Shown piece after piece: positions 4,113 to 61,700 of a stretch of 64,000 bases of DNA; position 1 is the stretch's first letter, and every line of letters starts with the position of its first letter. The stretch covers positions 6,269,834 to 6,333,833 of the forward strand of contig OY783204.1 of NCBI GenBank assembly GCA_963678705.1. Direction: 5' to 3'. Origin of the DNA: Panorpa germanica. Taxonomy: Eukaryota; Arthropoda; Insecta; Mecoptera; Panorpidae. A program made the translations under genes and the position numbers. The notes under the pieces were generated by a model that did not search any database, was not told where the DNA came from, and saw only the letters and a list, made by a program, of their open reading frames with translations.

Positions 4113-4493
4113 ATTGTTAATTAACCAGTGATAATTAAATAGAAGTTACTTCACTTCTAATTAATAACACTTAATAATAATATAAATTATAATTTAAAAA
4201 AAAAATAAATCACGAAAAAAAAATATTATAATTTGCAAAAAAAAAAGATAACTATTTATTTTATTGTTTTGTTTATTGTAAATACGTGCGCTCACCAAGA
4301 AGACTCGATGTAAACTGAAAATATTACATTAATGTAACATAACTTGGTAACATTCATGTTTTATGTTTAGCGGCAATAACCTTGATTTCGACACCAACTT
4401 ACTCGTACTCTATATCTATCTACATTTAATTGATATCACCTTTCTCTAGTTTGATTTGCTATCTGTTGATAACAAATCAACAAAAAACATACT

Positions 4494-4555
4494 TATAAAG
4501 AGGTAAAATACTTTACATACCAGTATACCAGTATACCGTAGTTATAATCAACCAT
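4494..4555 (+). promoter_or_regulatory. Possible promoter and noncoding first exon of the astacin gene
   Basis: A TATAAA box at 4494-4499 is followed about 25 bp later by CAGTAT-type initiator-like sequence near 4520 and a perfect GTAAGT donor at 4556. The first coding exon at 7990 is immediately preceded by a splice acceptor (CTTACAG), which needs an upstream 5' UTR exon. This one fits in position and strand. The link is inferred, with no transcript evidence. Confidence 0.35.
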
Positions 4556-4824
4556 GTAAGTTTCCATTATTTTAGTTGTACACGATACCGTATATCCGAT
4601 AAACATTAGAAGTAAATAATACATTAAATATTGGTTAATTTTATGTAAAATAGTTAAAATTTTAGATATTATTTATATTCCATTTTAATTATGTACTAGT
4701 AATGTATATTTTACATATCAATTCGTAACAAATAGAGTTAGTGAAAACCTATTTTTATAAACCATCCCGAATATCAAATTTTGAATTATTGTGCTTTTAG
4801 TTACTGTGACATTGTGATAGATGT

Positions 4825-5466
4825 AATGGGCTTGTGTCCTATGTCTTAATTTATATAAAAGTGTACTATATATTGATAAAGTGGGTTACTAGAACCTCAA
4901 ATGTCTAATTATTTTTTAATAACTCCTTATATGTTAAGAGATATTAACAATTGAAAAAGTCATTTTGTCTCTTTAATTATTAAAGGGATTCAACGTTGTA
5001 CACATTCCAACTGCTTATGACATCACAGTCGCTGCCAACCTTACAGCTCATAAATCTCTGCTATATGTATTTATATATCAAAATATCAAATATTATTTAC
5101 AGCTATTAAAAAGAACAATAAAATTCCAATATTATGTCAGCCTTAGCAGGGTTATATAAAATAAAAACTTATTATTCTTTGACTTGACTTGATTATTTGA
5201 TTACCAACAGCTGCAAAACATTACCACAGCACTGACAAACTACTCAACAAATAACTGACGCAAACTGACATTAAATTGCAGTTCACGTCATACAAATATG
5301 GCCGACCATTTCTAGCGCTAAAACTACAATTCAAACTTTTAATTGCTATACCTCCGTCAATATTTAGATATTTAATAAAATAGACACACCAATACACATT
5401 TATTAACATCAATTTCAATCAACAATTGAAAAATCGACCACTAAAAAATGAGGACACAAGCCCATT
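4825..5466. mobile_element. MITE-like element with AATGGGCTTGTGTCCT inverted ends
   Basis: 642 bp bounded by 16 bp perfect inverted repeats (AATGGGCTTGTGTCCT and its complement). A second complete copy of 638 bp is at 62193-62830, and partial relatives lie at about 6340-6795 and 11215-11350. The interior contains a conserved stretch reading (either strand) ...GACTTGACTTG... and ...AAATTAAGACATAGGAC.... No coding capacity is apparent. I could not define a convincing target duplication, so the superfamily is unassigned. Confidence 0.7.
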
Positions 5467-6339
5467 GTGAAATATGTATGTATATTCCTCTCGGATTGTT
5501 GTGTTCAATAATATGCGAATACAAATTGATTGCGACACCTAAATTTCGCCATGAATAGATCATTCTTGTTGTTGAGATGTAAAGTTTAAAGAAAAATAAA
5601 GCAGACTTGCAGACAATAATAAATTTTACTTTATACTTAAATGAAAGTTTATATATTGAATTTTTTTTCAATTCTAACTCTCGGTACCGAAATAAACATA
5701 AATAATATGTAGTACTGATTATTTTTCTGAATATTGCCATTCTACACGGGACCTTAAGGAAGAATATAAAATTACATCATAACTAGTTACATCGTTATTT
5801 TTTTTATTAACTACGACAGTTTCAAAACTATCAACCTGACGATATTAAATAAATTTGATGTTATTGAACTACCGGCTGGTGAGTAGTGATCCAGTGACCC
5901 ACGTTTACATAGTTATAGACAAAAACATCATTGAACAATAAAATGATAATGTAAAAATTATACTTCACTACGTCACATTAATGTCCACAATCGACTCATC
6001 ACGGGCAAAACTGTTAATTGAACGGCCACTCGGTCCATAAGGGGTCAATTTTTATGTTTCTGTTGACATGCCACACCAAAATGTTCAAAAGTTTCCTCTT
6101 TTCCATAAAGTCAGTGCTTGTTTGTGCTGTAGTATCTAAATCTTATGCAGGCGTGAAGGACATTTCAGCGCCCAGTTATCAATCGGCAGATTCTAGTTAT
6201 TAATCTTTTGGAAATATCTTCATCAATCCATGTAGAGTTTTTAATAGTTTTATTGTACGAATAAAATATCTACATATATTTTCAGTCCATCGTGACGTTT
6301 TCTTGGTAATAATTTTCATTCGATGTATGGGTTGTCAAT

Positions 6340-17043: not shown

Positions 17044-17245
17044 GTTTACATCGAGTCTTCTTGGTGAGCGCACGTATTTACAATAAACAAAACAATAAAA
17101 TAAATAGTGATCTTTTTTTTGCAAATTAGAATATTTTTTTTTTCGTGATTTATTTTTTTTTTAAATTATAATTTATATTATTATTAAGTGTTATTAATAA
17201 GAAGTGAAGTAACTTCTATTTAATTATCACTGGTTAATTAACAAT

Positions 17246-18673
17246 ATGGATATGGAGGTTGAACCTCCCGATAAAAATCCGATCAATAAAAACAACTCTG
17301 TGACTAACAAATCAATTCCTACAGATAAAACATCCAGTGATATAACAGAAAACTTAAATAACAATAGTGACAATGTTAAAAAAATATTTAATAATTTATA
17401 CAACACAGAAACAAAATATGACTCGTATAAAGTAATGATAGTTAAAAATAATAGTGATGGAAATACATTTTTTAGTTCTCTTAAATTAGCAGAAATAATA
17501 TGTAAAATTAGCAATAAATCTAATATAATAGAAATTAAAAAAGTGGGAAGAAATAGAGTAATCGTTCAATGTGCTAATGCAGTACTAGCTAACGAAATTA
17601 CCAAATCAACATTGCTGAAAAACAATGGGTATGAAGCGTTTATACCATTTTACTGGTGCACAAAAGTTGCTATTATAAAAGGTGTTGATATTGAATATTC
17701 GGAAGATACAATTTTAAATAATATAGAGTGTCCACCTTTTAAAGTAACGAGAGTGCAAAGGTTAAATCGAAAACTAAGAGTTGACGGAGCTATTAAATAT
17801 GAACCCAGTACAACAGTGAAATTATTCTTTGAAGGACTTGCTATTCCTGCTTATGTTTACATGTGGAGAGTGAGACGAGCATGTGAACCATTTGTACAAC
17901 AGACGATACAATGTTATAATTGTTTTAAATTTGGACATGCAGCCACAAAATGTAGAGCAAAAGTAGCAAAATGTAAATTCTGCGGAAGTGAAGATCATTT
18001 ACGTACTGCATGCACATCTCCTAATCCGACATGCATAAATTGTAAACTTAACCACGAGGCTACAGACAATGAATGTCCTGAAAAAAAAAGACAAATCAAG
18101 ATAAAAGATCTCATGGCCCAACACAATCTCAGTTTTTATGAAGCAAAATTAGAATTAACAGAAAAAAATACAGACTATTTATACTCAGTAAGAACTCAAA
18201 ACTCTTTTGAAGCTCTAAACTACAATGAGACTTTTCCCAATATCACTAATAAATACAATAGTATCAACATAATTCCAACATACAAACCAAACCCTTTAAC
18301 CAGAAGAACTAATACCAGAGTGAATAAATCAAATACAGGTAACTCGTTACAAAGATCTTACAGTCAACCACAACCTACGACATCCACTAAAGAACCAATT
18401 CAAAAAAGAAGAAGAGAAGAAAAGAAACCTAACAATGAAGAAAGCGACACATACCTTAAGATAACTAATCAAGGAAAAAACAGAAAGCAAATCAACCAAG
18501 AGACACCTGATATTACAATGGAAAACAATGATAATGATACTTGCTATACATCAATATATAATAAAAATAATGATGACAAAATTAAAAATACAAACAAAGA
18601 CCCAAATATTACATCCCAATCCCTTAGAAGCTACAAGAAACAAATATCTAGTGTACAATGGCCAAACTCGTAA
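17246..18673 (+). CDS. LINE ORF1, Gag-like nucleic-acid-binding protein
   Basis: Intact 475-residue ORF that starts MDMEVEPPDK. Zinc knuckles occur at residues 223-277 (CX2CX4HX4C twice, then an irregular CX2CX3HX6C). The N terminus is polar and Asn-rich and the C-terminal third is basic and low-complexity, typical of RNA-coating ORF1 proteins. It is 205 nt upstream of ORF2 with no overlap, so ORF2 would need reinitiation or an internal start. It is nearly identical to 4112-2685. Confidence 0.95.
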   Translation: MDMEVEPPDKNPINKNNSVTNKSIPTDKTSSDITENLNNNSDNVKKIFNNLYNTETKYDSYKVMIVKNNSDGNTFFSSLKLAEIICKISNKSNIIEIKKVGRNRVIVQCANAVLANEITKSTLLKNNGYEAFIPFYWCTKVAIIKGVDIEYSEDTILNNIECPPFKVTRVQRLNRKLRVDGAIKYEPSTTVKLFFEGLAIPAYVYMWRVRRACEPFVQQTIQCYNCFKFGHAATKCRAKVAKCKFCGSEDHLRTACTSPNPTCINCKLNHEATDNECPEKKRQIKIKDLMAQHNLSFYEAKLELTEKNTDYLYSVRTQNSFEALNYNETFPNITNKYNSINIIPTYKPNPLTRRTNTRVNKSNTGNSLQRSYSQPQPTTSTKEPIQKRRREEKKPNNEESDTYLKITNQGKNRKQINQETPDITMENNDNDTCYTSIYNKNNDDKIKNTNKDPNITSQSLRSYKKQISSVQWPNS

Positions 18674-18878
18674 GAAAACATCGATATATAAATTAAGTTT
18701 ATTTTTTAAAAATCTATTCACATCACTAAACCTAATCGTTTAATAAATTTACTAAAATATTAAATCAACAATAATTATATAAACGGAGAGAAAAAAAAAT
18801 AAAATAAAATATATAAATAAATCTAACAACAAGACCAAGGACAGATATAAAAATCAATAATTAATTAAAACAGTTAAA

Positions 18879-21800
18879 ATGATAAATTTTATTCAATGGA
18901 ATTGCAGAGGAGTCAGATATATTAAAGAGGAACTACAACATATGTTACAGAAGCATAACATACATATATGCATACTATCAGAAACGTTTTTAACAAAAAA
19001 TATCAATTTCAACATCAAAGGTTATTTTATTGAAAGAGAAGATAGGATACAGAATACAAACTATAATCCCCACGGGGGTGTTGCTATCTTGATTCATAAA
19101 GCTATAAAATATAAACGAGTAATGCTAAATAACCCATTTAATTCGGTCGAAATAGTTGGAATAATTTTAACACATAACGAAACTGATGTAATATGTATTT
19201 TATCAATCTATGCTAAACCGAATCATAAACTATCTAATTCTAATTGGTCACAGATAAAACAACAAATAGATGTTCCTGTTATACTTGCTGGAGATTTTAA
19301 CGCGACTAATCTTGCTTGGGATATAAATTGTCCAGGTAGTCAGTATGAAGGTAACGAATTGTTAGATTTCATAGAAAACGAAAATCTAAATATTATTAAC
19401 GATGATAAACCAACTAGAGTAAGCAATCTCAGTACAAGGGACAGTATATTGGATCTCACATTGGTATCAATGACGTTAACACAACAAATTACTTCGTGGC
19501 AAGTTCTTGCAGATAGCTTAGGTAGTGATCACTACCCAATTTTTTTCTGTTTGAATGACTATAATAAAGACCGTTACCGTACATCTGAATATTTAACGAG
19601 GAGAAATTTCCGAAAAGCAGATTGGGAGAAATATAGCCTTGAAATAGAAAGCAGAATTTCAAACCTTAGCACAAATGGAATCACAAGTGATCCCCAAGAT
19701 GTTGAAAACAAATACAACCAATTTAGAGATGTTATTAATAATTCGGCAGACATACATATCCCATCTACCAGATTGTATAATATAACTCCTAATAAAATAA
19801 AACCGTCTTGGTGGGACACTGAGTGCAATAAAATGATAGCTCAAAGAAAATTAGCACTAACTATTTTTAATAAAAACATGACAATGGCGAATTATTTAAA
19901 TTATAAAAAACATCAAGCTAAAACCAGACGATATTTTAGAGCCAGAAAAAAAATAGAATGGCAAAATTTCTGCGAGAATTTAAACCCAAACACAACAACC
20001 AACATTGTCTGGAATAATATAAGAAAAATTAACAATAAAAGCTATAGTACTAAAAGGATAAGTGATAATGAAAATTTAATAGAAGAATTCATTAAAAAAA
20101 AATTTCCAAAGAACAACAATTTAAATATTACTACCACCACCATCGTAAAAGATAATTTTCTAGATAATAACATAAATAAAAATGAAGTAAATTTCGCGTT
20201 AAATCATAATAAAAACAGTAGCACAGGATTTGATAGAATAAATTAAAAAATGATACAAAACTTACCTGACAATGCAATAAATCATCTTACACAAATATAT
20301 AATCTGTCATTAAACACTGCTGATATACCATTAGACTGGAAAAAACATATCGTTGTTCCTATATTAAAAACAGGAAAAGATCCAAACAAAGAAGAATCAT
20401 TCAGACCAATTACTTTACTATCATGTATGGGCAAAACTATGGAATCCATCATCAAAAACAGACTGGAGTGGTATCTCGAACATCATAAAAGATTACCTGA
20501 GTTACAATTTGCGTTTAGAAAAACAAGAAGTACACAGCATAACTTAAACATATTGAATATAGATATTCAAAGAACATACAGTAAAAATCATTATATGATA
20601 GCTGCTTTCATTGACATTGAAGCTGCTTATGACAATGTTAATCTAAAAATATTAAAAGAAAAAGTAGAAAACATAGGTATATCTTCCAAAATATCCAACT
20701 GGATTATAAACTACTTCCAAAATAGAGAAATAACAGTTAGATACAATAATAAGTTAACTGGTCCTATACTATGTAATCACGGAATTCCACAAGGCTCAAT
20801 ATTATCTCCCTTATTATTCAACATATACACAGAAAAGTTAACAACATTATCAGATAACAACACAACAGTACTGATGTATGCAGATGACATGGTTATTTAT
20901 AGTATGGGCCATACACAAGATATAGCTCAAAACAGATTACAATCGAAATTAAGAAAACTAGATATTTTACTAAAAGAAATCAAATTAAATATATCGTCAG
21001 AAAAAAGTAAAATAGTTATATTTACAAGGCATAGAATAAACTGCAGTCCAAAAATAACCATCAGAAATAAAAATATAACTGTTAGTTCAAATACCAAATT
21101 TCTGGGTATATTCTTTGATACGAAAAGCACTTGGGCGAAAGAAATTGCACATATTATTAACAAATGTCAAAAAGGCTTAAATTTGATGCGATGTATAGCA
21201 GGATACAAATGGGGCGCACACCCAACAACCTTAATAAAAATATATAAAGCTATTGTTAGACCGCATATTGACTATTCTAGTACTATGATCTGCACCGCAA
21301 ATAACTCAAGATTAAAAAAAATTGAAATTATACAAAACAAATGTTTAAGAATAATATTAGGTGCAATGGTTTCAACACCAATCCAAATCCTCAACTATCA
21401 AACTAATATTCCTCCGGTAAATATCAGAATACAACAAATATCAGACAGTTTCTTTTGTAAAAACAGACATAACTCATGTGGCCCCTTAAATACAAGATTA
21501 TCTAAACTATATGTTCTTTATAATAAACCATATTGGACAACTCATAAAAAACCGGCACTTTTAACTAGTTTTGATAGATATAATAACTTGAACTTAGAGG
21601 TACACAACATTATACCTTTTTTCAAATTTCCATTAGAAATAAGCATGACAACAATACATACAGAAATAAATTTGTTCAAGAAGAATGACAGTAAGGAAAT
21701 AACTTATCAAAAATATATGGAATATATAACAAAAGATGATATAAACTGGAGTATATGGTTTACCGATGGTTCATTCGAAAAAAACTCTAAAACTGGAGGA

Positions 21801-22607
21801 ATTGGCATTTTCAATTATAATACAGATCAGCAGTACAAATACAAACTTAACAACATCACAAATTCTTATAATACAGAAATAACAGCAATTATGAAATTAC
21901 TAGAAATAATACAAAAAACTGACAATAAAAATATATTAATCTTCACAGATTCTCGTAGTGTTTGTGTATCTTTAAATAACAATAAATTCAAAAACAATAA
22001 TAATAACAAAATATGTTCAATTAAAGAATATCTTTTAAAAATGGAAAAAAATGATATCAATGTTAAACTTATTTGGATTCCTGGACATGTAGGCATAAAA
22101 GGAAACGAAATGGCTGACAAACTGGCCAAAGAAGCTTGTGTAGATGGGGAAATAATTGAAATAAATTGGTCAATAAATGATTCCAAAAAAATAATTAAAG
22201 AAAATTGTATGGCAGAATGGCAGAATATATATAATGAGAAAAGTCAAAGTACTGGAAAAAATTTTTTTGCAGCGAATCAAAAAATTCCAACAACCACATG
22301 GTTTAATAAAAATCATTCACGGAGATATATTTCAACAAATTGTCGAATGAAATCTGGGCATTCTAGATGTCCAGCTCATCTATACAAAATAAATATAAAA
22401 GACACACCAAATTGTAGATGTGGAGAAGAAGGGTCTTTGGACCATATAATTCTAGGGTGTCATCTTTTAACATCAAAAATTGATAGACTTTTAAATGATT
22501 TATGTAATGTAACACAGTTCCCAGTCAATATGTCCTGTTTAATGACAAGTGAAGCAACGGCGGAAATATTAACAAACTTTGTGATAGAAAATAATATAGA
22601 AGTGTAA
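18879..22607 (+). pseudogene. LINE ORF2 polyprotein broken by one in-frame stop
   Basis: One continuous frame of 1243 codons, with TAA at 20244-20246 after residue 455. The next Met is at 20250. The paired site in the minus copy is TAC, so a single C-to-A change made the stop. Domains in order: endonuclease, about residues 1-230 (QWNCRG, SETFL, AGDFNATN, SDHYPIF); reverse transcriptase, about 480-760 (PILKTGKDP, FIDIEAAYD, IPQGSILSPLLF, YADD); RNase H, about 960-1100 (FTDGS, a Glu in TEITAIMKLLE, FTDSRS, IPGHVGIKGNEMADKLA); and a C-terminal zinc motif CRCGEEGSLDHIILGC. The break separates the endonuclease from the catalytic RT core, so this copy is probably not autonomous unless the stop is read through. 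Confidence 0.93.
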
Positions 22608-44352: not shown

Positions 44353-44758
44353 CATTGGCGTAGCTAGGTAACCAAAGCGCCGGTGCAAAAAGAAACTGGG
44401 GCCCTAACTAAACTGTTTAGGTTTTATATTTATATATATATTTTGACTATATTTTGACTATAATTTGACTACAATTTGACTATATTTTGACCATATTTTT
44501 ACTATAATTTGACTATGTTTTGACTATACTTCGTCTATATTTCGACTATTTTCCGACTATATTTTGACTATATTTTGACTATATTTTGACTATATTTTAA
44601 CTATATTTTGACTATATTTTGACTATATGACTACATGACTATATGAATATATATGTATATATATATATGCTAGTACAATACGAGGTTTGCTGGTCAGGGT
44701 CCGAGGGCCCCCTGAGCTAGAGGACTTACCGACTGCCCCATACCTAGCTACGCCAATG
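44353..44758. mobile_element. hAT-type MITE with internal TTTTGACTATA minisatellite
   Basis: The inverted termini CATTGGCGTAGCTAGGTA are perfect over 18 bp. A perfect 8 bp target duplication TTCCTAAC lies at 44345-44352 and 44759-44766, diagnostic of hAT. The 406 bp interior holds about 20 imperfect TTTTGACTATA units (about 44430-44640) and no coding sequence. Confidence 0.92.
44430..44640. repeat. 11 bp TTTTGACTATA minisatellite inside the hAT MITE
   Basis: Tandem variants of (A)TTTTGACTAT, with substitutions such as ATAATTTGACTAC and TTCGACTAT, filling the centre of the MITE. Confidence 0.9.
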
Positions 44759-46423: not shown

Positions 46424-46432
46424 CCAACAATG
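46424..46432 (+). repeat. Foldback element target-site duplication, left (contains original ATG)
   Basis: CCAACAATG immediately before the element's first base, identical to 55784-55792. The ATG at 46430-46432 follows the splice acceptor TTGTTACAG by 11 nt, as in gene A. Confidence 0.9.
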
Positions 46433-46699
46433 ACGTCGGTGAAGTTAGCAGCGCGGTCTAGCAGCGCGATGGAAACTAGTGGTGTGAATAACATAGCTGT
46501 CTACAGTCTCATAGAGAATATTCGAAATTGCTATTATACAGTTCATATGGAAACTTAACCGTCATTATTGTTACTATTGACATAAATACAAAATGTAATA
46601 ATAGAAAATAAACATTTGCAATCATATATTAGCACTAAGGAATAATAAACGTCTATACAAAAATAGAATTATTTTAACGAATATACAAACATTAGAATA

Positions 46700-49245
46700 A
46701 GTAACTTCTCATCTTTATTTTTATAAAATACTTAACACGTTAAGAGTGTTTACTTTAAATAACTATATTTTAAATTCAAAACAATATAATAAATTGGAAA
46801 TTACAGGTATTTGAATAGTGTTGTATTTCATACACTCAGGTAAATATGCTGATATAAAAACTGAAAAAAAAGGAATTATACATCTTTATTTTTTAATAAA
46901 ATTAAACGTGTGTATAGTATACACTATACATAACAATAATTTAAATTCAAAACCATGGGAAAATAAGTTAGATTCGGAGATACAGGTCTTTGAAAAGTGT
47001 TATATTTCATACGCACAGATATACTTGGTGATACAAAGCGCAAGTAATCAAAGATAGCAGCGCGAAGATAAACTCAAAAAAAAGGAATTATACATATTTA
47101 TTTTTTAATGAAATTAAACGTGTGTATAGTATACACTATACATAACAATAATTTAAATTCAAAACCATGGGAAAATAAGTTAGATTCGGAGATACAGGTC
47201 TTTGAAAAGTGTTATATTTCATACGCACAGATATACATGGTGATATAAAAACTCAAAAAAAAAGGAATTATACATCTTTATTTTTTAATAAAATTAAACG
47301 TGTGTATAGTATACACTATACATAACAATAATTTAAATTCAAAACCATGGGAAAATAAGTTAGATTCAGAGATACAGGTCTTTGAAAAGTGTTATATTTC
47401 ATACGCACAGACATACATGGTGATATAAAAACTCAAAAAAAAGGAATTATACATATTTATTTTTTAATAAAATTAAACGTGTGTATAGTATACACTATAC
47501 ATAACAATAATTTAAATTCAAAACCATGGGAAAATAAGTTAGATTCGGAGATACAGGTCTTTGAAAAGTGTTATATTTCATACGCACAGACATACATGGT
47601 GATATAAAAACTCAAAAAAAAGGAATTATACATATTTATTTTGTAATAAAATTAAACGTGTGTATAGTATACACTATACATAACAATAATTTAAATTCAA
47701 AACCATGGAAAAATAAATTAGATTTAAAGGTACAGGTCTTTGAAAAGTGTTATATTTCATACGCACAGATATACTTGGTGATACAAAGCGCAAGTAATCA
47801 AAGATAGCAGCGCGAAGATAAACTCAAAAAAAAGGAATTATACATCTTTATTTTTTAATGAAATTAAACGTGTGTATAGTATACACTATACATAACAATA
47901 ATTTAAATTCAAAACCATGGGAAAATAAGTTAGATTCGGAGGTACAGGTCTTTGAAAAGTGTTATATTTTATACGCACAGATATACATGGTGATATAAAA
48001 ACTCAAAAAAAAGGAATTATACATATTTATTTTTTAATAAAATTAAACATGTGTATAGTATACACTATACATAACAATAATTTAAATTCAAAACCAGGAG
48101 AAAATAAATTAGATTCGGAGGTACAGGTCTTTGAAAAGTGTTATATTTTATACGCACAGATATACATGGTGATATAAAAACTCAAAAAAAAGGAATTATA
48201 CATATTTATTTTTTAATGAAATTAAACGTGTGTATAGTATACACTATACATAACAATAATTTAAATTCAAAACCATGGGAAAATAAGTTAGATTCGGAGA
48301 TACAGGTCTTTGAAAAGTGTTATATTTCATACGCACAGGTATACATGGTGATATAAAAACTCAAAAAAAAGGAATTATACATATTTATTTTTTAATAAAA
48401 TTAAACATGTGTATAGTATACACTATACATAACAATAATTTAAATTCAAAACCAGGAGAAAATAAATTAGATTCGGAGGTACAGGTCTTTGAAAAGTGTT
48501 ATATTTTATACGCACAGATATACATGGTGATATAAAAACTCAAAAAAAAGGAATTATACATATTTATTTTTTAATAAAATTAAACGTGTGTATAGTATAC
48601 ACTATACATAACAATAATTTAAATTCAAAACCATGGGAAAATAAGTTAGATTCGGAGATACAGGTCTTTGAAAAGTGTTATATTTCATACGCACAGACAT
48701 ACATGGTGATATAAAAACTCAAAAAAAAGGAATTATACATATTTATTTTGTAATAAAATTAAACGTGTGTATAGTATACACTATACATAACAATAATTTA
48801 AATTCAAAACCATGGAAAAATAAATTAGATTTAAAGGTACAGGTCTTTGAAAAGTGTTATATTTCATACGCACAGATATACTTGGTGATACAAAGCGCAA
48901 GTAATCAAAGATAGCAGCGCGAAGATAAACTCAAAAAAAAGGAATTATACATCTTTATTTTTTAATGAAATTAAACGTGTGTATAGTATACACTATACAT
49001 AACAATAATTTAAATTCAAAACCATGGGAAAATAAGTTAGATTCGGAGATACAGGTCTTTGAAAAGTGTTATATTTCATACGCACAGATAAACATGCTGA
49101 TATAAAAACTCAAAAAAAAAAAAGAAATTATACATCTTTATTTTTCAATAATATTTAACATGTGTATTATACATTACTATATTTTAAATTCAAAACAATT
49201 TAAAAATATTATAGGTTCGGTAGTACAGGTTAATGTAAAAAGAAA
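46700..49245. repeat. Tandem array of 179 bp units, left foldback arm
   Basis: About 12 units. Starts of the shared GTGTTATATTTCATACGCA segment are spaced 179 bp apart, with every few units lengthened to about 211 bp by an insert containing CAAAGCGCAAGTAATCAAAG. Edge units (46700-46810, 49110-49245) are diverged while central units are nearly identical. Each unit carries a hairpin-forming GTATAGT-ATAC-ACTATAC. The 72- and 79-codon open frames in each unit are by-products of the repeat. Confidence 0.95.
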
Positions 49246-49980
49246 TAGTTTATTTTATTGTGAATAATTTTTAAATATGCTGGTAACATCTAGTATTTTA
49301 AATTATTTCGCAATAACGCTCACAGATGACACTGTTATAAAAAATATTTTTCTGTATAATAAGCGAAATACGTTCAGGAATTTGGGGATTCCCTGTTCAT
49401 TTTGCCGCCAAGCTGTCTGTCATAATTTGTCATTAACGCTTAATATTACTGTGTAAATAAATTATTGGGTGATTTGTGCTGAAACACTTTAAAACTGTAA
49501 GTACCTTTATTTCGTTATACTAACTGTTGTTATATGCATACATATATATATAGTATTTTATTTTTATTAACATCATATCGAAATAATCTTTTTTTTTAAT
49601 TACTTCTAATAATATTATATTCTATAACAGTAAAATTCTATTATTACATCTACTTATTAAAGAACAATGATTAAACAACAACATAATGGATCAAGAAATT
49701 ACTAACATCAATCCATTAACTCTGCCAATTTTTGGGCTGCGCTGATTATTACTAAAGAAATTGAAATATTGTTTATTATTACTTATTACTATGTTTATTA
49801 TTACACTACTGTTATAATATAATACATACATTTCTTGAGAAGACGTTTTCAAATAGATTTTCTAAGGAGTAAACTACAACTATGATATTATTTATTTCAG
49901 TCACTTCAATTTGATCAGCAATAAGTTGGTTATCAAGAACAACTTTGAAATTGTTGAAGCGTAGCAGAACACAATAAAAT

Positions 49981-50837
49981 ATGGTAAGATTAAAAATGGA
50001 TTACTATTACATATAATAGAACAAATAATAGTCTGAAGTAATTGACTAACTTAATATTCTAGGACCGTGAATACTACTTATTTGGTAGCAGCTCTTTAGT
50101 GCGCTATGGAAAATGTGTTTTTAACATTCCACGAAAAGTGAAAAAGGTAGACAGAGCTGTAAGTGGAAGAACTGCTCGACAGTTGGAATGCAGCCTTCGT
50201 CACGTAAAAGAGAGCGACGCAAAAATAAAAAAAGGTTTGGTGATGATTGGAATAAACGATGTTATAAATGTAAGTAAAATATAACTATTCACAATGAAAT
50301 CAAAATATCTGAATATTTATAATACTATTTATAATAAAATATTTTCAGAACTGTTCACCAAGGAAGTTCAAGCAAATAATTCAATCAATTGCAAAGAAGC
50401 TAAAAGGCATACGCGTGATTTGGCTGACACTTCCAACACCTCCAAGATTTATGATGGACAAGAAAAAATTAATGCTGTTGGATATATACAACAACCATAT
50501 TGTTAAATTAGAAAAACGTAATACAACTTACAATACAAGTAATACAAGTAAATCAAATAAACAATGCATAGTATTGAAAATATTTTATTTAATTATAGAA
50601 GACCATATAACAGTATTAGACATACGTAACGAATTTAAAGAAAACAGTGGAGAAGTAAAGGAAACATTATTTGAAAGGTAAATATTATAAAGTTATATCT
50701 TACTGAAACCTAACTGAAATTTTAATAATATTTTTATTCTAAATTGAAGGTATTACCATGATGGCAGGACGGATCTGCTACATTGGAACTTAAGAGGGAT
50801 TAATGCAGTAGAAGCATTAGTTAAAAAATATCTATAA
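49981..50837 (+). CDS. SGNH/GDSL-hydrolase-like protein encoded inside the foldback element, 4 coding exons
   Basis: Coding exons 49981-49983 (ATG only), 50063-50269, 50349-50677 and 50750-50837 join in phase through GT/AG introns to 208 residues. A noncoding exon probably ends at 49496 (GTAAGT), with an acceptor at 49900. SGNH blocks appear in order: I, FGSSSLVRYG (Ser11 at the GDS position, with D replaced by S); II, SGRTARQL (Gly36); III, GINDVIN (Asn66); IV, VIWLTLPTPP; V, DLLH (Asp188, His191). The order and spacing fit a compact SGNH fold, so catalysis is plausible, with an unknown ester substrate. No signal peptide. SGNH domains are known in some LINE ORF1 proteins, but this gene has introns and no LINE neighbour in the same sense. 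Family assignment rests on motifs read by eye. Confidence 0.7.
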
Positions 50838-50884
50838 TCCTTAATAATCCTTTCCTTTTGGCTGACTTTTGTTAATGAAATCTT

Positions 50885-51070
50885 TGTTTTTATTATATAT
50901 TAATTGTGTGTGCCTTTCGGCTTTACAATCTACAGTATTATATTTCTAATACATTTCATTCCTATATACATTCAAACTTAAAACTAAACTTAAAATATTC
51001 TAGACTTTTACTACTTCCAAAAGTGCTTTCTGCTTCTTCTTCTTTTGACCCTCTCTATTATTCTCCACCA
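50885..51070 (-). pseudogene. LINE 3'-UTR fragment
   Basis: The minus strand ends ...TGTAGATTGTAAAGCCGAAAGGCACAC followed by AATTAATA, matching the 3' ends at 56775-56960 and 57187-57340. It lies directly after the SGNH-like gene, in antisense. Confidence 0.65.
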
Positions 51071-51074
51071 GCTT

Positions 51075-51480
51075 ATTTGAAATCTTTGTTTATCATATTA
51101 AAGTTTGGTTTTTTCTTTATACTAAAAATTTCATATTTAGGTAATTTCACTTTCATTTTAATTTCCAAATTTATAAATTCCTTTGCTAATTTATCTGCAA
51201 TTTAGTTTCCTCTTATTGTGTATCTTAATACACAATGTCTTTATATCCACATTTATTTTATGGTATTAGTTTTGTAAATTAAATTGAAATAAAGCTTCTT
51301 AATTCAGCATGTCAATATATTATTATTTCATTTGTGGTCATTTGAATATTTTGTAAAACACATAAAGAATCTGATATTATTATAATTTCATTTGTATTTA
51401 ATTATCTTTCCAATGCATTTAATATTGCTAATTTTTTACCAGTATAGGAACATACCTTGTTATTTAGTTTAAATTTAGCA
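51075..51480 (-). pseudogene. LINE RNase H fragment
   Basis: The minus strand reads, with stops, MWI.RHC and IADKLAKEFINLEIKMKVKL, the RNase H end of the older I-like subfamily at 38535-38660. Confidence 0.7.
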
Positions 51481-51619
51481 TACAAATAATTAGTTTTTTT
51501 CTAAATCAATGGCAAAAAAGTACAGCTTGAGATTTTTCTACTGAAATTGAACTTTATATGAAAAATTATTAGTTATTATATGTAATATTAATATACGAGT
51601 TAAATATTTTAATTTAAAA

Positions 51620-51865
51620 ATGGAATTAAAATTTGAAATGAAATTCATTTTATACAAAAAAGACTGTGGTCGTTTGCGACGGAGGTCAGTGCTAGTACTA
51701 TTTAAAACAATACAGATATCAGTACAGAAAACAATAAGAGATATCACAATCGACAGCTTGATTTTGATCTTCTCTTCCCTTTTGCTTCTGGTGATACTGA
51801 TTCATGCAGTGGATCTGTGTAGAAAAGGTTCCAGCAACTGGTACTGTAAAGCAGTAAAGTTATAA
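51620..51865 (+). CDS. Small ORF with one hydrophobic segment inside the foldback element
   Basis: An 81-codon ORF (MELKFEMKFILYKKDCGRLR...). About residues 46-64 (SLILIFSSLLLLVILIHAV) are long and hydrophobic enough to span a membrane, followed by two or three cysteines. The N-terminal half is basic. No homologue recognised and no strong splice or promoter evidence. It could be a chance ORF in AT-rich sequence, an exon, or a second element gene. Confidence 0.25.
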   Translation: MELKFEMKFILYKKDCGRLRRRSVLVLFKTIQISVQKTIRDITIDSLILIFSSLLLLVILIHAVDLCRKGSSNWYCKAVKL

Positions 51866-52609
51866 TAGTAATAGTAATCATAATAATAATAATAATAATA
51901 GTAATTTACTCGTTAGTTAATCTATTTGTAAACGTCTTTTCAAGAAATGTATGTATTATATTATAACAGTAGTGTAATAAATAATAAACAATATTTCATG
52001 ATACATAAACAAATAAATGTAGCAGCTATACCAAGCGAGCAGGTGAGTATCATAGCCAGGAGGGAAAGGATAGGTATGGAAATGGAATTAGAATAAGAAG
52101 GACAATAACAAAACTGAAAAGAGTAATACATAAAAATAAGGTACAATAAGAAAATAATTTTGTTACACTAGTAATACTCGTATGTAAATATAACTTTATT
52201 AATATATGTATATACTATGAAAAACTAATTAGTGACGAATCTTGTATTTTGAAAAGAATTTTTTTTCAATTTAATATTATTTAGTATTATGTACTAATAA
52301 GTACACCTTAATACCCCTTAAGAGTTACTATCGCTATTAGTAATAAGAAAATGTTGTGCAGGTTGTAGAGATATGTTTAATCTAAATTTAAATTAGTTGC
52401 CTATGTCCTTTTGTTTATTTTAAATTTTATTTAAAATTTATTTTTAATTTATTTTAAATGAACAGGGAATCCCCAAATTCCTGAACGTATTTCGCTTATT
52501 ATACAGAAAAATATTTTTTATAACAGTGTCATCTGTGAGCGTTATTGCGAAATAATTTAAAATACTAGATGTTACCAGCATATTTAAAAATTATTCACAA
52601 TAAAATAAA

Positions 52610-55500
52610 CTATTTCTTTTTACATTAACCTGTACTACCGAACCTATAATATTTTTAAATTGTTTTGAATTTAAAATATAGTAATGTATAATACACATGT
52701 TAAATATTATTGAAAAATAAAGATGTATAATTTCTTTTTTTTTTTTGAGTTTTTATATCAGCATGTTTATCTGTGCGTATGAAATATAACACTTTTCAAA
52801 GACCTGTATCTCCGAATCTAACTTATTTTCCCATGGTTTTGAATTTAAATTATTGTTATGTATAGTGTATACTATACACACGTTTAATTTCATTAAAAAA
52901 TAAAGATGTATAATTCCTTTTTTTTGAGTTTATCTTCGCGCTGCTATCTTTGATTACTTGCGCTTTGTATCACCAAGTATATCTGTGCGTATGAAATATA
53001 ACACTTTTCAAAGACCTGTACCTTTAAATCTAATTTATTTTTCCATGGTTTTGAATTTAAATTATTGTTATGTATAGTGTATACTATACACACGTTTAAT
53101 TTTATTACAAAATAAATATGTATAATTCCTTTTTTTTGAGTTTTTATATCACCATGTATGTCTGTGCGTATGAAATATAACACTTTTCAAAGACCTGTAT
53201 CTCCGAATCTAACTTATTTTCCCATGGTTTTGAATTTAAATTATTGTTATGTATAGTGTATACTATACACACGTTTAATTTTATTAAAAAATAAATATGT
53301 ATAATTCCTTTTTTTTGAGTTTTTATATCACCATGTATGTCTGTGCGTATGAAATATAACACTTTTCAAAGACCTGTATCTCCGAATCTAACTTATTTTC
53401 CCATGGTTTTGAATTTAAATTATTGTTATGTATAGTGTATACTATACACACGTTTAATTTTATTAAAAAATAAATATGTATAATTCCTTTTTTTTGAGTT
53501 TTTATATCACCATGTATATCTGTGCGTATAAAATATAACACTTTTCAAAGACCTGTACCTCCGAATCTAATTTATTTTCTCCTGGTTTTGAATTTAAATT
53601 ATTGTTATGTATAGTGTATACTATACACATGTTTAATTTTATTAAAAAATAAATATGTATAATTCCTTTTTTTTGAGTTTTTATATCACCATGTATACCT
53701 GTGCGTATGAAATATAACACTTTTCAAAGACCTGTATCTCCGAATCTAACTTATTTTCCCATGGTTTTGAATTTAAATTATTGTTATGTATAGTGTATAC
53801 TATACACACGTTTAATTTTATTAAAAAATAAATATGTATAATTCCTTTTTTTTGAGTTTTTATATCACCATGTATATCTGTGCGTATAAAATATAACACT
53901 TTTCAAAGACCTGTACCTCCGAATCTAATTTATTTTCTCCTGGTTTTGAATTTAAATTATTGTTATGTATAGTGTATACTATACACATGTTTAATTTTAT
54001 TAAAAAATAAATATGTATAATTCCTTTTTTTTGAGTTTTTATATCACCATGTATATCTGTGCGTATAAAATATAACACTTTTCAAAGACCTGTACCTCCG
54101 AATCTAACTTATTTTCCCATGGTTTTGAATTTAAATTATTGTTATGTATAGTGTATACTATACACACGTTTAATTTCATTAAAAAATAAAGATGTATAAT
54201 TCCTTTTTTTTGAGTTTATCTTCGCGCTGCTATCTTTGATTACTTGCGCTTTGTATCACCAAGTATATCTGTGCGTATGAAATATAACACTTTTCAAAGA
54301 CCTGTACCTTTAAATCTAATTTATTTTTCCATGGTTTTGAATTTAAATTATTGTTATGTATAGTGTATACTATACACACGTTTAATTTTATTACAAAATA
54401 AATATGTATAATTCCTTTTTTTTGAGTTTTTATATCACCATGTATGTCTGTGCGTATGAAATATAACACTTTTCAAAGACCTGTATCTCCGAATCTAACT
54501 TATTTTCCCATGGTTTTGAATTTAAATTATTGTTATGTATAGTGTATACTATACACACGTTTAATTTTATTAAAAAATAAAGATGTATAATTCCTTTTTT
54601 TTGAGTTTTTATATCACCATGTATATCTGTGCGTATGAAATATAACACTTTTCAAAGACCTGTATCTCTGAATCTAACTTATTTTCCCATGGTTTTGAAT
54701 TTAAATTATTGTTATGTATAGTGTATACTATACACACGTTTAATTTTATTAAAAAATAAAGATGTATAATTCCTTTTTTTTTGAGTTTTTATATCACCAT
54801 GTATATCTGTGCGTATGAAATATAACACTTTTCAAAGACCTGTATCTCCGAATCTAACTTATTTTCCCATGGTTTTGAATTTAAATTATTGTTATGTATA
54901 GTGTATACTATACACACGTTTAATTTCATTAAAAAATAAAGATGTATAATTCCTTTTTTTTGAGTTTTTATATCACCATATATATCTGTGCGTATGAAAT
55001 ATAACACTTTTCAAAGACCTGTATCTCCGAATCTAACTTATTTTCCCATGGTTTTGAATTTAAATTATTGTTATGTATAGTGTATACTATACACACGTTT
55101 AATTTCATTAAAAAATAAATATGTATAATTCCTTTTTTTTGAGTTTATCTTCGCGCTGCTATCTTTGATTACTTGCGCTTTGTATCACCAAGTATATCTG
55201 TGCGTATGAAATATAACACTTTTCAAAGACCTGTATCTCCGAATCTAACTTATTTTCCCATGGTTTTGAATTTAAATTATTGTTATGTATAGTGTATACT
55301 ATACACACGTTTAATTTTATTAAAAAATAAAGATGTATAATTCCTTTTTTTTCAGTTTTTATATCAGCATATTTACCTGAGTGTATGAAATACAACACTA
55401 TTCAAATACCTGTAATTTCCAATTTATTATATTGTTTTGAATTTAAAATATAGTTATTTAAAGTAAACACTCTTAACGTGTTAAGTATTTTATAAAAATA
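52610..55500. repeat. Tandem array of 179 bp units, right foldback arm
   Basis: About 14 units in inverted orientation to the left arm, with the same 179 and 211 bp classes, the same order at both edges and two extra units. Central units (53144, 53323, 53502, 53681, 53860) are exactly 179 bp apart. Confidence 0.95.
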
Positions 55501-55783
55501 AAGATGAGAAGTTACTTATTCTAATGTTTGTATATTCGTTAAAATAATTCTATTTTTGTATAGACGTTTATTATTCCTTAGTGCTAATATATGATTGCAA
55601 ATGTTTATTTTCTATTATTACATTTTGTATTTATGTCAATAGTAACAATAATGACGGTTAAGTTTCCATATGAACTGTATAATAGCAATTTCGAATATTC
55701 TCTATGAGACTGTAGACAGCTATGTTATTCACACCACTAGTTTCCATCGCGCTGCTAGACCGCGCTGCTAACTTCACCGACGT

Positions 55784-55792
55784 CCAACAATG
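55784..55792 (+). repeat. Foldback element target-site duplication, right (start codon of gene B)
   Basis: CCAACAATG directly after the element's last base. Its ATG (55790-55792) opens the gene B coding frame. Confidence 0.9.
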
Positions 55793-58700
55793 ACGCCGGA
55801 CTTAGATGAATTGCCTTTCATCCAGATGGGAGATTTTATATTAAAATTTAAACTGGAAGGTTTAAGTCCAGAAATGCGTGAAGTCGCACGAAAAGAACTC
55901 AGAGAAACTCCAGAAGTATCCCGGAAAGCTGTTTTAGAATTACGTGCTCTACTAAAGGGTAAGTTCGTACAAAAAATGCAGTTATTAAGTTTCAATATAT
56001 TTTATTATTTTCACTCCATTTTATAAAAACGGCAATTTAAAACATGTAAGACACGTACCAACTTGTAATCAAAAATGCGATCATAACAGGAAACATTACC
56101 GAAGTCTGTAGCACCGCCCTTTGAAGTCCATTTCTTGCTTTTGTGTTTTTCTGTATTGCCACAGAAAGTGGTCAGGATCTGCTTCCTCTTCACCACATTC
56201 ACACTTAGGGTTGTTAATGATCTTATTTTTTAGACCAGCAGCATCAGATTAATCCATTCTTAATCTTCTTGGCCATTTTAGCTTGGTGAACCGAATTATA
56301 TTAGCGGGGGGAAAAGAATAATCCCACTTGTGTTATCAGTTTTTAGTTTAACATTGTGTCTGCATTGCATACATCAGATCTGCTGACAACTGCACAATTG
56401 TGATATTAAGTAAAAGAAAAGATTCAATTTGTTTTAAGCATGACTCGCTGTCGATTTCTCAGTAAACAATTATGTTAAAAAGTAAAAGCACAGGATCTTA
56501 AGTTAAAGAATAAAAAATTAAAAATATTGCTTTGACGTCATAACATGATTTCATTTTATCTTTTTCAGAAGAAACTGATCTTTTAGTGCCACTGGACAAC
56601 GACGAATGGCTTATCAGATTTTTGAGACCTTGTAAATTTTATCCTCAGAGCGCTAAAGAATTGGTAAATATTTATTTCTGCTTTGACTATTAGCGCATGT
56701 GGTTTTTGCCTACAAATAATATTTGCGTTTTAATATACGAGTAATTGAATATTATGTAATAATTATATATATATTATTATTTATTATATTAATTGTGTGC
56801 CTTTCGGCTTTACAATCTACATTATTATATTTCTTAATGCATTTCATATAAATTCAAAGTTAAAACTAAACTTAAACTATTCTAGATTATTACTACTTCG
56901 AATAGTACTTTCTGTTTCTTCTTTTCTTGATCCTCTCTCTTCATGTCCCCTACTCCTCTTTTATTCACACCGTTTCGTGCTTCTCCTTCCTTATTGCCTG
57001 TATCTTCATCTATCACCTCTTGCATTCCTTGTCTCCTCTCGACAAACCCTCTATTATCTTTTCACTATATTTCCTGCCTTCTCTATTCGTTTTCACTTAT
57101 GTCTATTACAGGCATAAACACTCTCTATTTACTATTTCCTCTTGACTCTCTTACTTTACTATTTCTTCTTGACTGTCTTCCTTTACTATTATTATTATTA
57201 TTAATTGTTCGCCTTTCGGCTTTACAATCTACATTCTTAATACATTTCATATACTTCAACTTACAATTAAATTTAAACTATTCTAGACTTTTTTTATTTC
57301 CAAAAGTACTTTCTGCTTCTTCTTCTCTTGACCCTCTTCCTTCATTTTCCCTAGTCTTGCTTCTGGACTGGTCTATTCCGTAGTCTATTATTCTGGACTG
57401 AAGTTTAACTGTTTCCTCGCTACTTCATTCTTTCTCGTGCTTCCCTTCACTGCTTCTTTTTGTACTTCCTCTCTCTTCCTGTTCCTTGTGCAACCCAGCC
57501 ACCAGCTTATTTATTGTCTTGTTTTTTCTTTACTTTTTTCTATTTCCGCCATCCACCTCTTTACTTCACTGCCTCCCTTTAATAGCTAGCCAATATTCAT
57601 TTCGCTCACTACTTTTTCCTTACACTCAAACTTAATGTGCTCCAGTGTTTCGTCCTCCGTTCCGCACACTCTACACATTCTTTCCTCACTACTTTCCCAG
57701 TATCTGTTTATTGTAATAATTATATATTAGTCACAATGACACCACGTGGTTTGTATGACACTATGTATGATGGGGTGGCACAAAAGAAGGCCACCAATGC
57801 AAGTTTATCTATTTCAGTAACATGTTTAAAAGCGTTATACGTAGGTATAATTTACATATCTGCAATATAACATTTTATATCAGAAACGAGTCCCGCAAAA
57901 TTAAAGCAACTATAATCAAAATCAAAATAAATTATTGCAAAATTCCAGCTCAACTGTATAAAATTCATCATAACTCTAACGTTAGATGCCAATGTGGCGA
58001 ATTAGGAAAATTAGATCATATTATATTTGAATGCATAAATTATAGTATACAAAGATCAAAATTAAATAGTGAAATATTAGATTTAGTTATAACTTTCTTT
58101 TTCTTAAGTGTGTAACCCCACTAGTGGTAGCACAATGAGTCCATATATATTATTTACTATTACCTTTTACTTATCGAAATTTATATTTTAACGGAATTAT
58201 TTTAGGCAATTACTTTATATTCAAACTATTTTACTAATCGTGAATATTACTTTGTAACTAACTTTTAAAACGTTATTTACTCAGCGCCACCTATTTTAAA
58301 TTTAAGCTGTAAATTGGGAAACCAGCCATTAAAATGATAAACATTACTATCAAAACCGAAAAAATTAAATATAACTATTGATTAGCTATATGGACTAATC
58401 AACCCCGTTTATCAGTTTGATCTAAGACAATTTTGCGTTCAATACAAAACGTACAAGTGTTTTAACAACAATAATAACATAATACGAATTTACCGGAATC
58501 TAATACTAAGCGATGCACATTGGATATGGGAAAATGAAGGTATATAACTTACATGATAAAAAAATAAACACACATTTAAAAACAATAAATAAATGCAATA
58601 TAATTAAACAAAAAAAAAAAAAAAAATTAAAATTACATATAAAAAAAGATACAAAAAATCGTGAATCCATTCGGCCTCCCCTAGAGAAAGCCGAAGTGTC

Positions 58701-61700
58701 GAAAATTTATGCATAACTTTATAATTATTGATGATCTCTACGATTATTGATCTACTTTGAAATTTCTAGTTTTATAGTGTTATTACTGAGTTTTGAAATA
58801 GGACTGTTCTTTTCTATCTCGTCGGCTCTTGCTTTTATATTTCTTCCTTAGCTCGCCTTTTTCCCGTTTTTATTTTTCATTGGCTGAGTCCTTTCTTCTC
58901 AAATTTTGAAGAGTGTCTCTTCTTCCGGGCCCTAAATTATTTCTTTAACGCTCTGCGTGGGCGACCTTTGCGTGACCCACCATATTTTTTATTTGAGTTA
59001 TGTTGACATTTCATTAGGGTTCGGTCTGTGTTTGAAATTGTCTTGATATTTTTATTGCGATGCAAGTTTAGATATTTAAAGGGTCTGTTTTTTTTTCTTA
59101 GCTGGGGTTGTATCACATTGTTGAGAATACGTAAATATATACTTTGTCATGGTCATAACTTCGACCTACTCAAAGTCATTCTAATAGTTACCTAATCTAA
59201 TAAGTATTCTAATGTTGTTTCTAAACTCAATGATTTTGGATGGTTGCAAATTAGTGTATCTCGCTGATAGGCCAGTGGCGTAGAGTAGTTACAAGTGATT
59301 CAAAATAAATTAGTGAATTATTTAAATATTTAGATGATACTAAAATAGATTAAAAATCTTCATTTCGCTAGATTTCATGTAAAACTATATATTAGTAATG
59401 TTAAATTATAATTTTAATTATGATAATCGTTATGACGAATAAATGTCGAGGCCAATTTAAATAATTTGAAAAAAAAACACTTTATGTAAAAGAAACTTAA
59501 GTATCCTTTATGATTTTTGAAAATGAAAATTATCAATATTATTTAATGTTTAACGTGTAAATATTTTAGATTAAATATTTTGATACACTTGACTTGTGTA
59601 AATTTTTGAACATGTTCTTTGACGAACCTTAATTACTGTCAGTAATGAATTTCACAACTCCATTCATCATTTTACAGGTTAAGAGGTACTACGGCTTTAA
59701 ACTGAAATACGCAAATATATATGTTGATCTTATGCCAAGTAAAGAGAGAAACATTTTTGAACAAAATATATTAACAGTGCTTCCAAAACGAGATCAGCAT
59801 GGCCGCAGACTTTTACTTTTACAATTAGGAAGTAAGTATCTCAACAACTCTAACGGTATACGGGATTCTACATCTACCTACTAATAATAACTTAACTGTT
59901 TGTAGAGAAATGGAAGCATAACATCTGTTCTTTGGATGAGATATTCAAAGGAATTGTTTTGTTCGTTGAGACCGGTTTGTGGGAACCCGCGACACAAGTA
60001 CTTGGAGGAGTTGTGATATATGATTTCGATGGCTTAACCATGCAACAAGTATTTCAATTTATTCCACCATATGCCAACAAATTAGTAGAATGGCTTCAAG
60101 TAAGTTCATTGTTTGTATGTGTGTATTAATTTGCTCTTTTGCGTTACTTCCTGCATCAATGCTATTCTATCCTCTTTCCTTACAATATCTTTCCAGTCAG
60201 TTCTCTTTCTTTTCACATTCCACATACTTTCAGCTACAATTTCTACTCTTCCTTCCTAGGCATCCTTCATGTTTTATCTTCCTCTTTACCCCAATATCTG
60301 CTTCCTATTGCTTTATTATTTTGTCTAAACATTCTTTCTTTCAGTGTTTTCCAAGTAAGCACTTTCTTTTATCAGTCCTTTTATCTAGCTCTCTTTAATT
60401 CTTAACCTTTCTATCTCTTCCATTGCAGTTCCTCTTCCTTCGTAGTACCTTCTCATTTCGTTTTCCAATATCTTTCCTGTTTTGTTCATTCACCATTCTC
60501 AAGGACTCGTTCATGCCTTTTTAATTTTCTGTTTCCACCTCATCGCTTTTAGAACACTCAAGGAAGTTCCACTTTACACATTTTAAAACAGAATTTATTT
60601 ATCTTTATTAATATTAAGGTTATTAGCGAATTAAAATTTCAAGTGAAAAGAGTCGTCATATTTTTTTCATATGTGACTTCAAATTTTTAAATTTGTTTAC
60701 TTGTTATATTAATATTGATATTAGAAATCTGATTAACACATTTATTAGATAAATGTGCCAGATTAGTCATAAATATTTATATTTCAGGATAGTGTTCCCT
60801 TTCGGATGAAATACCTCCATATAGTGAACCAACCGTATATCTTCAACATGGTGTTCCAACTATTCAAACCATTCTTACGTGAGAAACTGAAGAGTAGAAT
60901 TGTTTTTCATGGGGCAGACATGAACTCGTTACATAAGTATGTGTCACCAAGTTGTTTACCAGCTGCCTACGGAGGTAATTTGGATATTCCATGTGCTTCC
61001 GGCTTGGATTGGTACCAGGTGTTAAGTAAATGGGATGACGCATATAAAGGTATGTTTAGTATTTCATTTTTTTCTCTTTCTATATTCTTTCTCTCTAAAT
61101 ATAATTTCTTCTGGTTCGTTCATATATTGGATACTGCTTTAATGCTCTTAGCTATTTGCAAATATAAATATCGATACTATAAACTCTGACTTAAGTTATG
61201 CGAGATATATTTTATTTGAGAGTAATTTCATTCTCGTTCAAGTTCGTTTTCCACCTATTAAATCGCAGATATTTAAATATTCCTCAATAACAAAAACTTA
61301 CCACATATTAAATATAAGCGGTTCTAAAGATGTTAACCATCAACTATTTTTGCACAGTCAGAAATTTGCAGATATCGCTCGGCAGCAAGTCTAAACTTGC
61401 AACGTATGGAACTTTGCGTTAAATTTGCTGGTTGCAAAAGTTTGAGGTACTGGTTACAAAGGACTTGTAAACTCTTTTTTAGGGATCGTTTTTTTATTTC
61501 TGAATATCTTGAAATAAATTTTAAGTAACATTCGAAGTTCATCCAAAAGTTGGTGGTTATAGCTATATTGAATTTCAGTGTTCAGTGAATTTCAGATATT
61601 TTTTCTTTTTCACAACCTTCGTAATACTTGAAGGTGGTACATATCTCAGCTATTAGTAGTATCATACACACACTCGTATGCGTCCTCGTTGTATAAAGGA

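Follow-up and report, generated by a model that had tools for sequence, protein, structure and literature searches.

A predicted spliced SGNH-hydrolase gene of a foldback DNA transposon family in Panorpa germanica and its likeness to the OSK domain of Oskar

Several described systems share features with the locus reported here, a spliced SGNH-hydrolase-like gene within a foldback DNA transposon. The texim gene of fish Helitrons is likewise an intron-bearing SGNH gene that has been multiplied with a DNA transposon, although that transposon belongs to another class, the association is read there as capture, and most teleost Helitrons are described as being without the gene (PMC4021074), whereas here the pair of genes is found in two distant lineages. 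An SGNH protein is also encoded by LINEs, as an esterase domain of the retrotransposon ORF1 that in ZfL2-1 is reported to bind acidic phospholipids (PMC3905857), unlike the present separate spliced gene beside a presumed transposase, and a GDSL esterase-like accessory gene is described for rotifer Terminons, which differ in being giant telomeric retroelements (PMC6431247). With regard to the transposon itself, Tetris elements have inverted arms with internal tandem repeats of about 220 bp, but their copies are described as lacking conserved ORFs (PMC4079207), and Rehavkus elements share the 9-bp duplication and a minisatellite but have a PHD finger, in contrast to the C48 protease in the presumed transposase here (PMC6446971). 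The latter source makes no mention of SGNH.

The gene also resembles a part of oskar, the gene founding the insect germ line, in intron positions and sequence features. The OSK domain of Oskar is stated to bind mRNA and to miss key hydrolytic residues (PMC13389597). Published work attributes its origin to transfer from bacteria and, in an OSK profile search at E below 0.01, reports fungal proteins as the only non-Oskar eukaryotic matches (PMC7250577). As far as the relevant passages of these sources go, transposable-element activity is named only as a route for the integration of bacterial DNA (PMC7250577), and metazoan transposable elements are set aside as confounders in the third phase of the pipeline (PMC13389597). 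In our literature search, we found neither a foldback or Mutator-like element described as having an SGNH gene nor a proposal that OSK came from a transposon. For the origin of oskar, a transposon gene that has introns in common with OSK brings a concrete, testable rival to bacterial transfer; if the relationship is true, relatives of OSK would escape any screen for transferred genes in which transposons are left aside.

We analysed a stretch of 64,000 nucleotides from Panorpa germanica (contig OY783204.1, positions 6,269,834 to 6,333,833; hereafter the window). From the sequence comparisons below, we consider it likely that the SGNH gene is a conserved second gene of a foldback transposon family, and that it and the OSK domain arose from one intron-bearing ancestor of the SGNH fold.

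Structure of the element and its SGNH gene

The foldback copy in the window has long inverted arms built from 179/212-bp tandem repeats, and its features are as follows (positions in the window).

46424-46432, no strand: target-site duplication, left, CCAACAATG, 9 bp, read directly
46433-55783, no strand: foldback DNA transposon copy, 9,351 bp, without transposase gene
46433-49402, plus strand: left arm of 179/212-bp tandem repeats
49413-49745, plus strand: remnant of the presumed transposase gene, leader and first codons
49497-49900, plus strand: predicted 5' UTR intron, gtaagt...ttatttcag, read directly; acceptor also in the related locus L067
49981-49983, plus strand: SGNH coding exon 1, consisting of the ATG alone; in L067, too, GTAAGA follows the ATG
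50063-50269, plus strand: SGNH coding exon 2, blocks GSS, SG and GIND
50349-50517, plus strand: SGNH coding exon 3
50518-50598, plus strand: probable intron within the third exon originally predicted; in frame and open in the window, with stops in relatives
50599-50677, plus strand: SGNH coding exon 4
50750-50837, plus strand: SGNH coding exon 5, DLLHWN block and stop
50890-51077, no strand: secondary insertion, 188 bp, with 14-bp duplication TGAAATCTTTGTTT
52339-52424, no strand: piece of a 258-bp repeat; in the C8 copy, this repeat flanks the presumed transposase gene
52456-55783, minus strand: right arm, inverted copy of the left arm
55784-55792, no strand: target-site duplication, right, CCAACAATG, 9 bp, read directly

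The termini, ACGTCGG...CCGACGT, match each other, and the 9-bp target-site duplication, a feature of the MULE superfamily, is present in the one element examined for it, that of the window. The original prediction of a spliced SGNH gene at 49497-50837 holds as to the gene and its carriage between the inverted arms, and its coding extent is corrected to 49981-50837, position 49497 being the first base of the predicted 5' UTR intron and not coding. At each of the three predicted junctions there is a GT-AG intron, and the exons join in phase to give 208 residues, in which the SGNH blocks (GSS, SG, GIND, VIWLTLP and DLLH) are present in the order proposed. The count of four exons has to be amended, as the exon 50349-50677 appears to hide an 81-base intron and five coding exons are likely.

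This additional intron is called probable because the stretch matching 50518-50598 has stops and a GTATGT donor in four relatives (L067, L068, L069 and L071), and because an intron of the far-lineage locus L075 agrees with it in place and phase; what counts against it is that the 208-residue reading is open as well, both in the window and in each of the 15 intact copies described below. The likely product as read from the sequence has 181 residues from five coding exons. It scored 44.5 bits (E 3.2e-11) with Pfam Lipase_GDSL_2, for which the cut-off is 32.9 bits, and the 208-residue reading scored 30.4 bits (E 6.5e-7), below that cut-off; three relatives reached 47, 45.2 and 37.5 bits, the last being the L075 protein. 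With the SGNH residues Ser, Gly, Asn and Asp/His in order in GSS, SG, GIND and DLLH, membership of the window product in the SGNH hydrolase family, which had been proposed for a profile check, is supported. We considered an origin from LINE ORF1 and rejected it, as the predicted gene has introns and is enclosed by foldback arms flanked by a 9-bp duplication.

Variation was observed in block I, for which 63 pattern matches in overlapping loci gave GSS as the commonest form (34), followed by GDS (19). The catalytic serine is absent in L068, L069 and L074, where GDG replaces GDS, and in L072, which has GSR. No stop interrupts the spliced readings of L068 and L069, so the SGNH subfamilies with GDG (L068, L069 and L074) may be pseudo-enzymes.

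The remnant upstream of the SGNH gene holds a frame of 19 codons plus stop at 49686-49745. Window positions 49247-49728 are 72% identical to positions 3960-4399 of L063, the locus of the C8 copy, and the L063 stretch runs from upstream into the start of a 1111-residue frame. That the window copy keeps the leader and the first dozen or so codons of this large gene suggests that it is a deletion derivative of a fuller element.

Copies of the element, the large partner gene and selection

The element is present in many copies in the 464-Mb genome, with at least 59 DNA match pieces for its core, and with at least 187 genome matches for the window SGNH protein and at least 212 for the L075 protein. 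A copy at C21:23413872 is 100% identical over the 1,841 bases searched and 99.97% identical over 3,341. The 288-bp terminus has at least 40 genome matches (40 of 179 candidates scored), which make 17 inward-facing pairs 3.4-27 kb apart, and a piece of the SGNH gene lies inside 13 of these pairs. In addition, the 188-bp insertion found at 50890-51077 is at the same place in L002-L011 and L013 and not in L014-L021, indicating that the unit spread after being marked by the insertion. Thirty copies were fetched (L002-L031), six with only part of the gene and 24 near-full-length; 15 of the 24, including that of the window (L003), are intact with GT-AG at all four introns, and nine are broken, including the four at 92.6-93.8% identity over the gene. 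The broken copies are what would be expected if the SGNH gene were decaying baggage with no current function, a reading that the 15 intact copies and the dN/dS of about 0.2 between subfamilies (below) make very improbable. In three copies of about 91% identity (L022, L024 and L026), a second stretch 78% identical to the SGNH gene adjoins the first in the same orientation.

The fullest copies read are C8:959843-975775 and the far-lineage copy in L075, both of which have a large frame, an intron-bearing SGNH gene on each side and long tandem-repeat arms. In L075, the large gene is flanked by a mirrored pair of SGNH genes that are directed outwards, of which the one on the right is only partly in view. 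The large frame of the C8 copy spans 1111 residues from stop to stop and has at its C-terminus a Peptidase_C48 domain matching SENP1/ULP1 chains, and that of L075 has 1170 residues and is 45% identical to it over the alignment. A copy at C1:782220-798575 has the same plan as the C8 copy by coordinates, with a shortened transposase.

The C8 copy (region C8:954700-979500, L065-L066) is only tentatively read as a single 16-kb element, as the host DNA on both sides is also mirrored, at 99.2% identity; an exon there looks TAF1B-like by eye. The mirrored flanks may stem from two haplotypes having been joined during assembly, or from a true inverted duplication that is connected with the foldback element, and the C8 copy is therefore not made to carry the case.

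The large frame is presumed to be the transposase of the element, as it is the sole large frame noticed in the elements and has a suggestive order of motifs: candidate D443, D517, HNCCNH and E745 are conserved in both lineages, and we take these acidic residues and HNCCNH to be in the order of MULE-type DDE enzymes. The word presumed is kept because a Pfam scan of both large frames gave only Peptidase_C48 above cut-off, with no transposase, MULE or PHD finger domain, and comparison with a MULE-domain protein of the same genome (L064) gave no match. A scan of viral contigs found no relative of the large frame. The L064 frame (4468-5493), which scored 29.8 bits for the MULE domain, belongs to another family, and the frames around it resemble chemoreceptors by eye. 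Upstream of the SGNH gene of L075, an open frame on the minus strand (1788-2018) with a CxxC...H pattern has a BED-finger-like look and no Pfam match, and may encode an N-terminal domain.

The SGNH gene and the large gene occur together. When 45 large-gene matches were merged by eye into 34 loci (one merge on C5 joining opposite-strand pieces 3.3 kb apart) and the listed SGNH matches were reduced by eye to 148 places, some of them pieces of one gene, 28 of the 34 loci had an SGNH place within 10 kb among the matches listed, and random placement would give about 0.2. The six loci without a listed SGNH match (C147, C1:10064816, C7:4662412, C5:14185463, C21:23287963 and C10) may in part be misses of the SGNH search. 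The pairing and three introns are kept between lineages whose presumed transposases are 45% identical. The gene is also under purifying selection between subfamilies, with dN/dS of 0.175-0.219 in all six comparisons among the window, L067, L068 and L069; the four comparisons with L075 were saturated and left out.

These observations bear on the two origins raised by the original prediction, a captured host gene under mobilisation or an element-specific hydrolase. MULEs are described as tending to acquire host gene fragments (PMC6446971), so that a host SGNH gene might have been captured once, in the manner of a Pack-MULE, and carried passively with no role in the element; this would agree with a window copy that has no transposase, and with the finding that, of the 148 SGNH places listed, just 33 lie within 10 kb of a large-gene match among those listed. 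However, the pairing across such distant lineages, the purifying selection and the conserved introns fit a conserved element gene better than passing cargo. Random capture is accordingly disfavoured and passive cargo improbable, and orthologues solely at unrelated loci with no element nearby are not what this genome shows. Of the two original alternatives, the element-specific gene is thus the better fit. In that case, a DNA transposon would have retained a second gene besides that of its transposase through a long span of evolution, which raises the question of what use an SGNH protein is to such an element.

Proposed relationship to the OSK domain

By raw profile score, the element proteins lie nearer to bacterial SGNH proteins than to OSK. 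Pfam OSK (PF17182) matched the L075 protein at 29.5 bits (cut-off 27), below the Lipase_GDSL_2 score of the same protein, and was not reported for the window or L067 proteins. A four-row element profile run against structure chains reached Drosophila Oskar at E 0.007-0.008, and the Oskar chains ranked below a designed protein and two GDSL proteins. Identity of the element SGNH proteins to OSK is 16-22%, and the element profile gave 28-40 bits for three bacterial or phage-like SGNH proteins versus 18-25 bits for OSK. Apart from elements, the loci found in the viral and prokaryote collections were limited to one phage-like contig and two genes of cyanobacteria. The SGNH protein of L075 had no match in plasmid and phage searches, and a viral-contig scan with the phage-like protein returned itself only. 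A GxV...LF stretch was dropped as an OSK-specific mark, as it is also found in the phage-like and cyanobacterial proteins.

The host genome has its own OSK gene at C12:279340-280150, recognised by two exon matches to Pfam OSK; joined, the 130 residues scored 113 bits with Pfam OSK and 51 bits with Drosophila Oskar. Five LOTUS matches were listed in the genome, none of them on C12, where this gene lies, so the gene is called oskar-type by its OSK domain alone. The host OSK exons end in GSVDILL| (phase 0) and DFDNYE-CT| (phase 2), and the next exon, assigned by eye, reads EATYGTSNNQPLVLWNYRGRTNVEQLL. The element gene reads GINDVIN| before a phase 0 intron and LFE-AG| before a phase 2 intron, and then continues with YYHDGRTDLLHWNLRGINAVEALV. 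Both positions coincide with those of host OSK, gap-free from the block residues, in the window and L067 genes, and in L075 the second aligns only with a one-residue gap. The simulated chance of two introns coinciding was 1e-5 to 8e-5 for exact positions and 0.002-0.005 with one codon of slack, in a simulation that ignores preferred insertion sites. The third intron of the element gene is absent from the host OSK gene, which has another intron upstream of block II. The other host SGNH gene found (L001; Lipase_GDSL_2, 34.7 bits), which we take to be PAF-AH-like, has open frames through both intron places.

For a wider comparison, 21 proteins were aligned, comprising four element proteins, two OSK, L001 and 14 bacterial or phage-like proteins; the last consisted of the phage-like and two cyanobacterial loci named above, together with 11 records picked by eye, so as to be well spread, among the 30 listed of 43 matched, and likeness to a phage-like protein was the basis on which outgroups were collected. 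All four element rows and both OSK rows have a WN motif and, ahead of the last block, an insertion; neither is present in any of the 15 others. With the insertion columns removed, the tree places element and OSK on one side of a branch at 99/97, and this branch was found at 99/99 without three outgroup rows and at 95/97 without Drosophila. An earlier 10-row tree gave 93/96, not starred, with p 0.044 for OSK joined to bacteria and p 0.059 for the element joined to bacteria, which was not rejected. The OSK rows are long branches, for which the tree program warns.

The higher bacterial scores and the phage-like or cyanobacterial identity of the sole non-element loci found in the collections would suit separate descent of the element gene and OSK from bacterial SGNH genes, with convergence and parallel gain of introns, and in published trees OSK is nested in bacteria (PMC7250577). 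Against this stand the two introns at the same codon and phase, the insertion and WN motif confined to the element and OSK rows, the branch that persists without the insertion columns and the lack of both introns in L001, and we regard separate bacterial origins as rather unlikely. The element gene resembles the OSK domain in SGNH fold family, two intron positions with their phases, the insertion, the WN motif and, for the L075 protein, the Pfam OSK match, and differs from it in being transposon-encoded, in mostly keeping its catalytic residues and in having no LOTUS domain in the gene; Pfam reported no LOTUS in the window protein.

The descent may have run in either direction. In the 21-row tree, element and OSK are sisters with neither nested in the other (element rows 94/82), and without Drosophila the element rows alone are joined only at 79/0, so that domestication of an element gene, an early capture by the element and a shared host gene since lost are all accommodated. 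The element might have taken up the hydrolase portion of an early oskar-like gene at a time when OSK still had its catalytic residues; such a capture would agree with this tree and with the shared introns, which fit both directions. In host OSK, however, GSVD and LWN stand where GxND and HWN are expected, so that the block III asparagine and the block V histidine are lost, whereas the S, G, N and H positions are kept in most element subfamilies. This favours a catalytic, element-like ancestor; capture from a modern OSK would need the catalytic residues to be regained, and capture in this direction appears unlikely. We tentatively suggest, as a possibility, that OSK was domesticated from an SGNH gene of a foldback transposon, or that both came from one intron-bearing eukaryotic gene and not directly from bacteria.

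Returning to the common intron-bearing SGNH-fold ancestor that we prefer, the family may be pictured as follows. In the full element, a presumed DDE transposase, joined in one protein with a ULP1-type protease, would have an SGNH gene on each side and tandem-repeat arms around it; the window copy would have lost the transposase except for the leader of its gene, would still have its ends and arms as well as an intact SGNH gene, and would presumably be mobilised in trans. The SGNH gene of such an element and the OSK domain of Oskar would both descend from that ancestor. Our best guess is that the SGNH product serves as an accessory protein with affinity for RNA or acidic lipid and might help the RNA or protein of the element to act in germ cells, with esterase activity perhaps kept in some subfamilies only. 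The element SGNH proteins are basic (pI 9.5-10.1), as is Drosophila OSK (pI 9.6); an argument from charge is weakened by two of the 14 bacterial rows, which also have pI 9.5, and by the host OSK fragment, which is acidic (pI 4.6).

Surroundings of the insertion

The element is inserted at the likely start codon of a CRAL-TRIO gene (55784-55960, start exon read by eye), whose domain lies at 60773-61189. As an ATG within the right duplicate CCAACAATG restores the start, the upstream side of the gene now lies 9.35 kb from the coding frame. Elsewhere in the window, a minisatellite with an 11-bp unit is located at 44404-44671. Among the nine window frames scanned, a reverse-transcriptase frame was found at 20247-22607, outside the element. 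It is part of a group of adjacent frames at 17213-22607, namely a frame of 486 residues with no Pfam match, an endonuclease and a reverse transcriptase with RNase H, which are likely to form one LINE, and a second 486-residue frame is present on the minus strand at 2685-4145.
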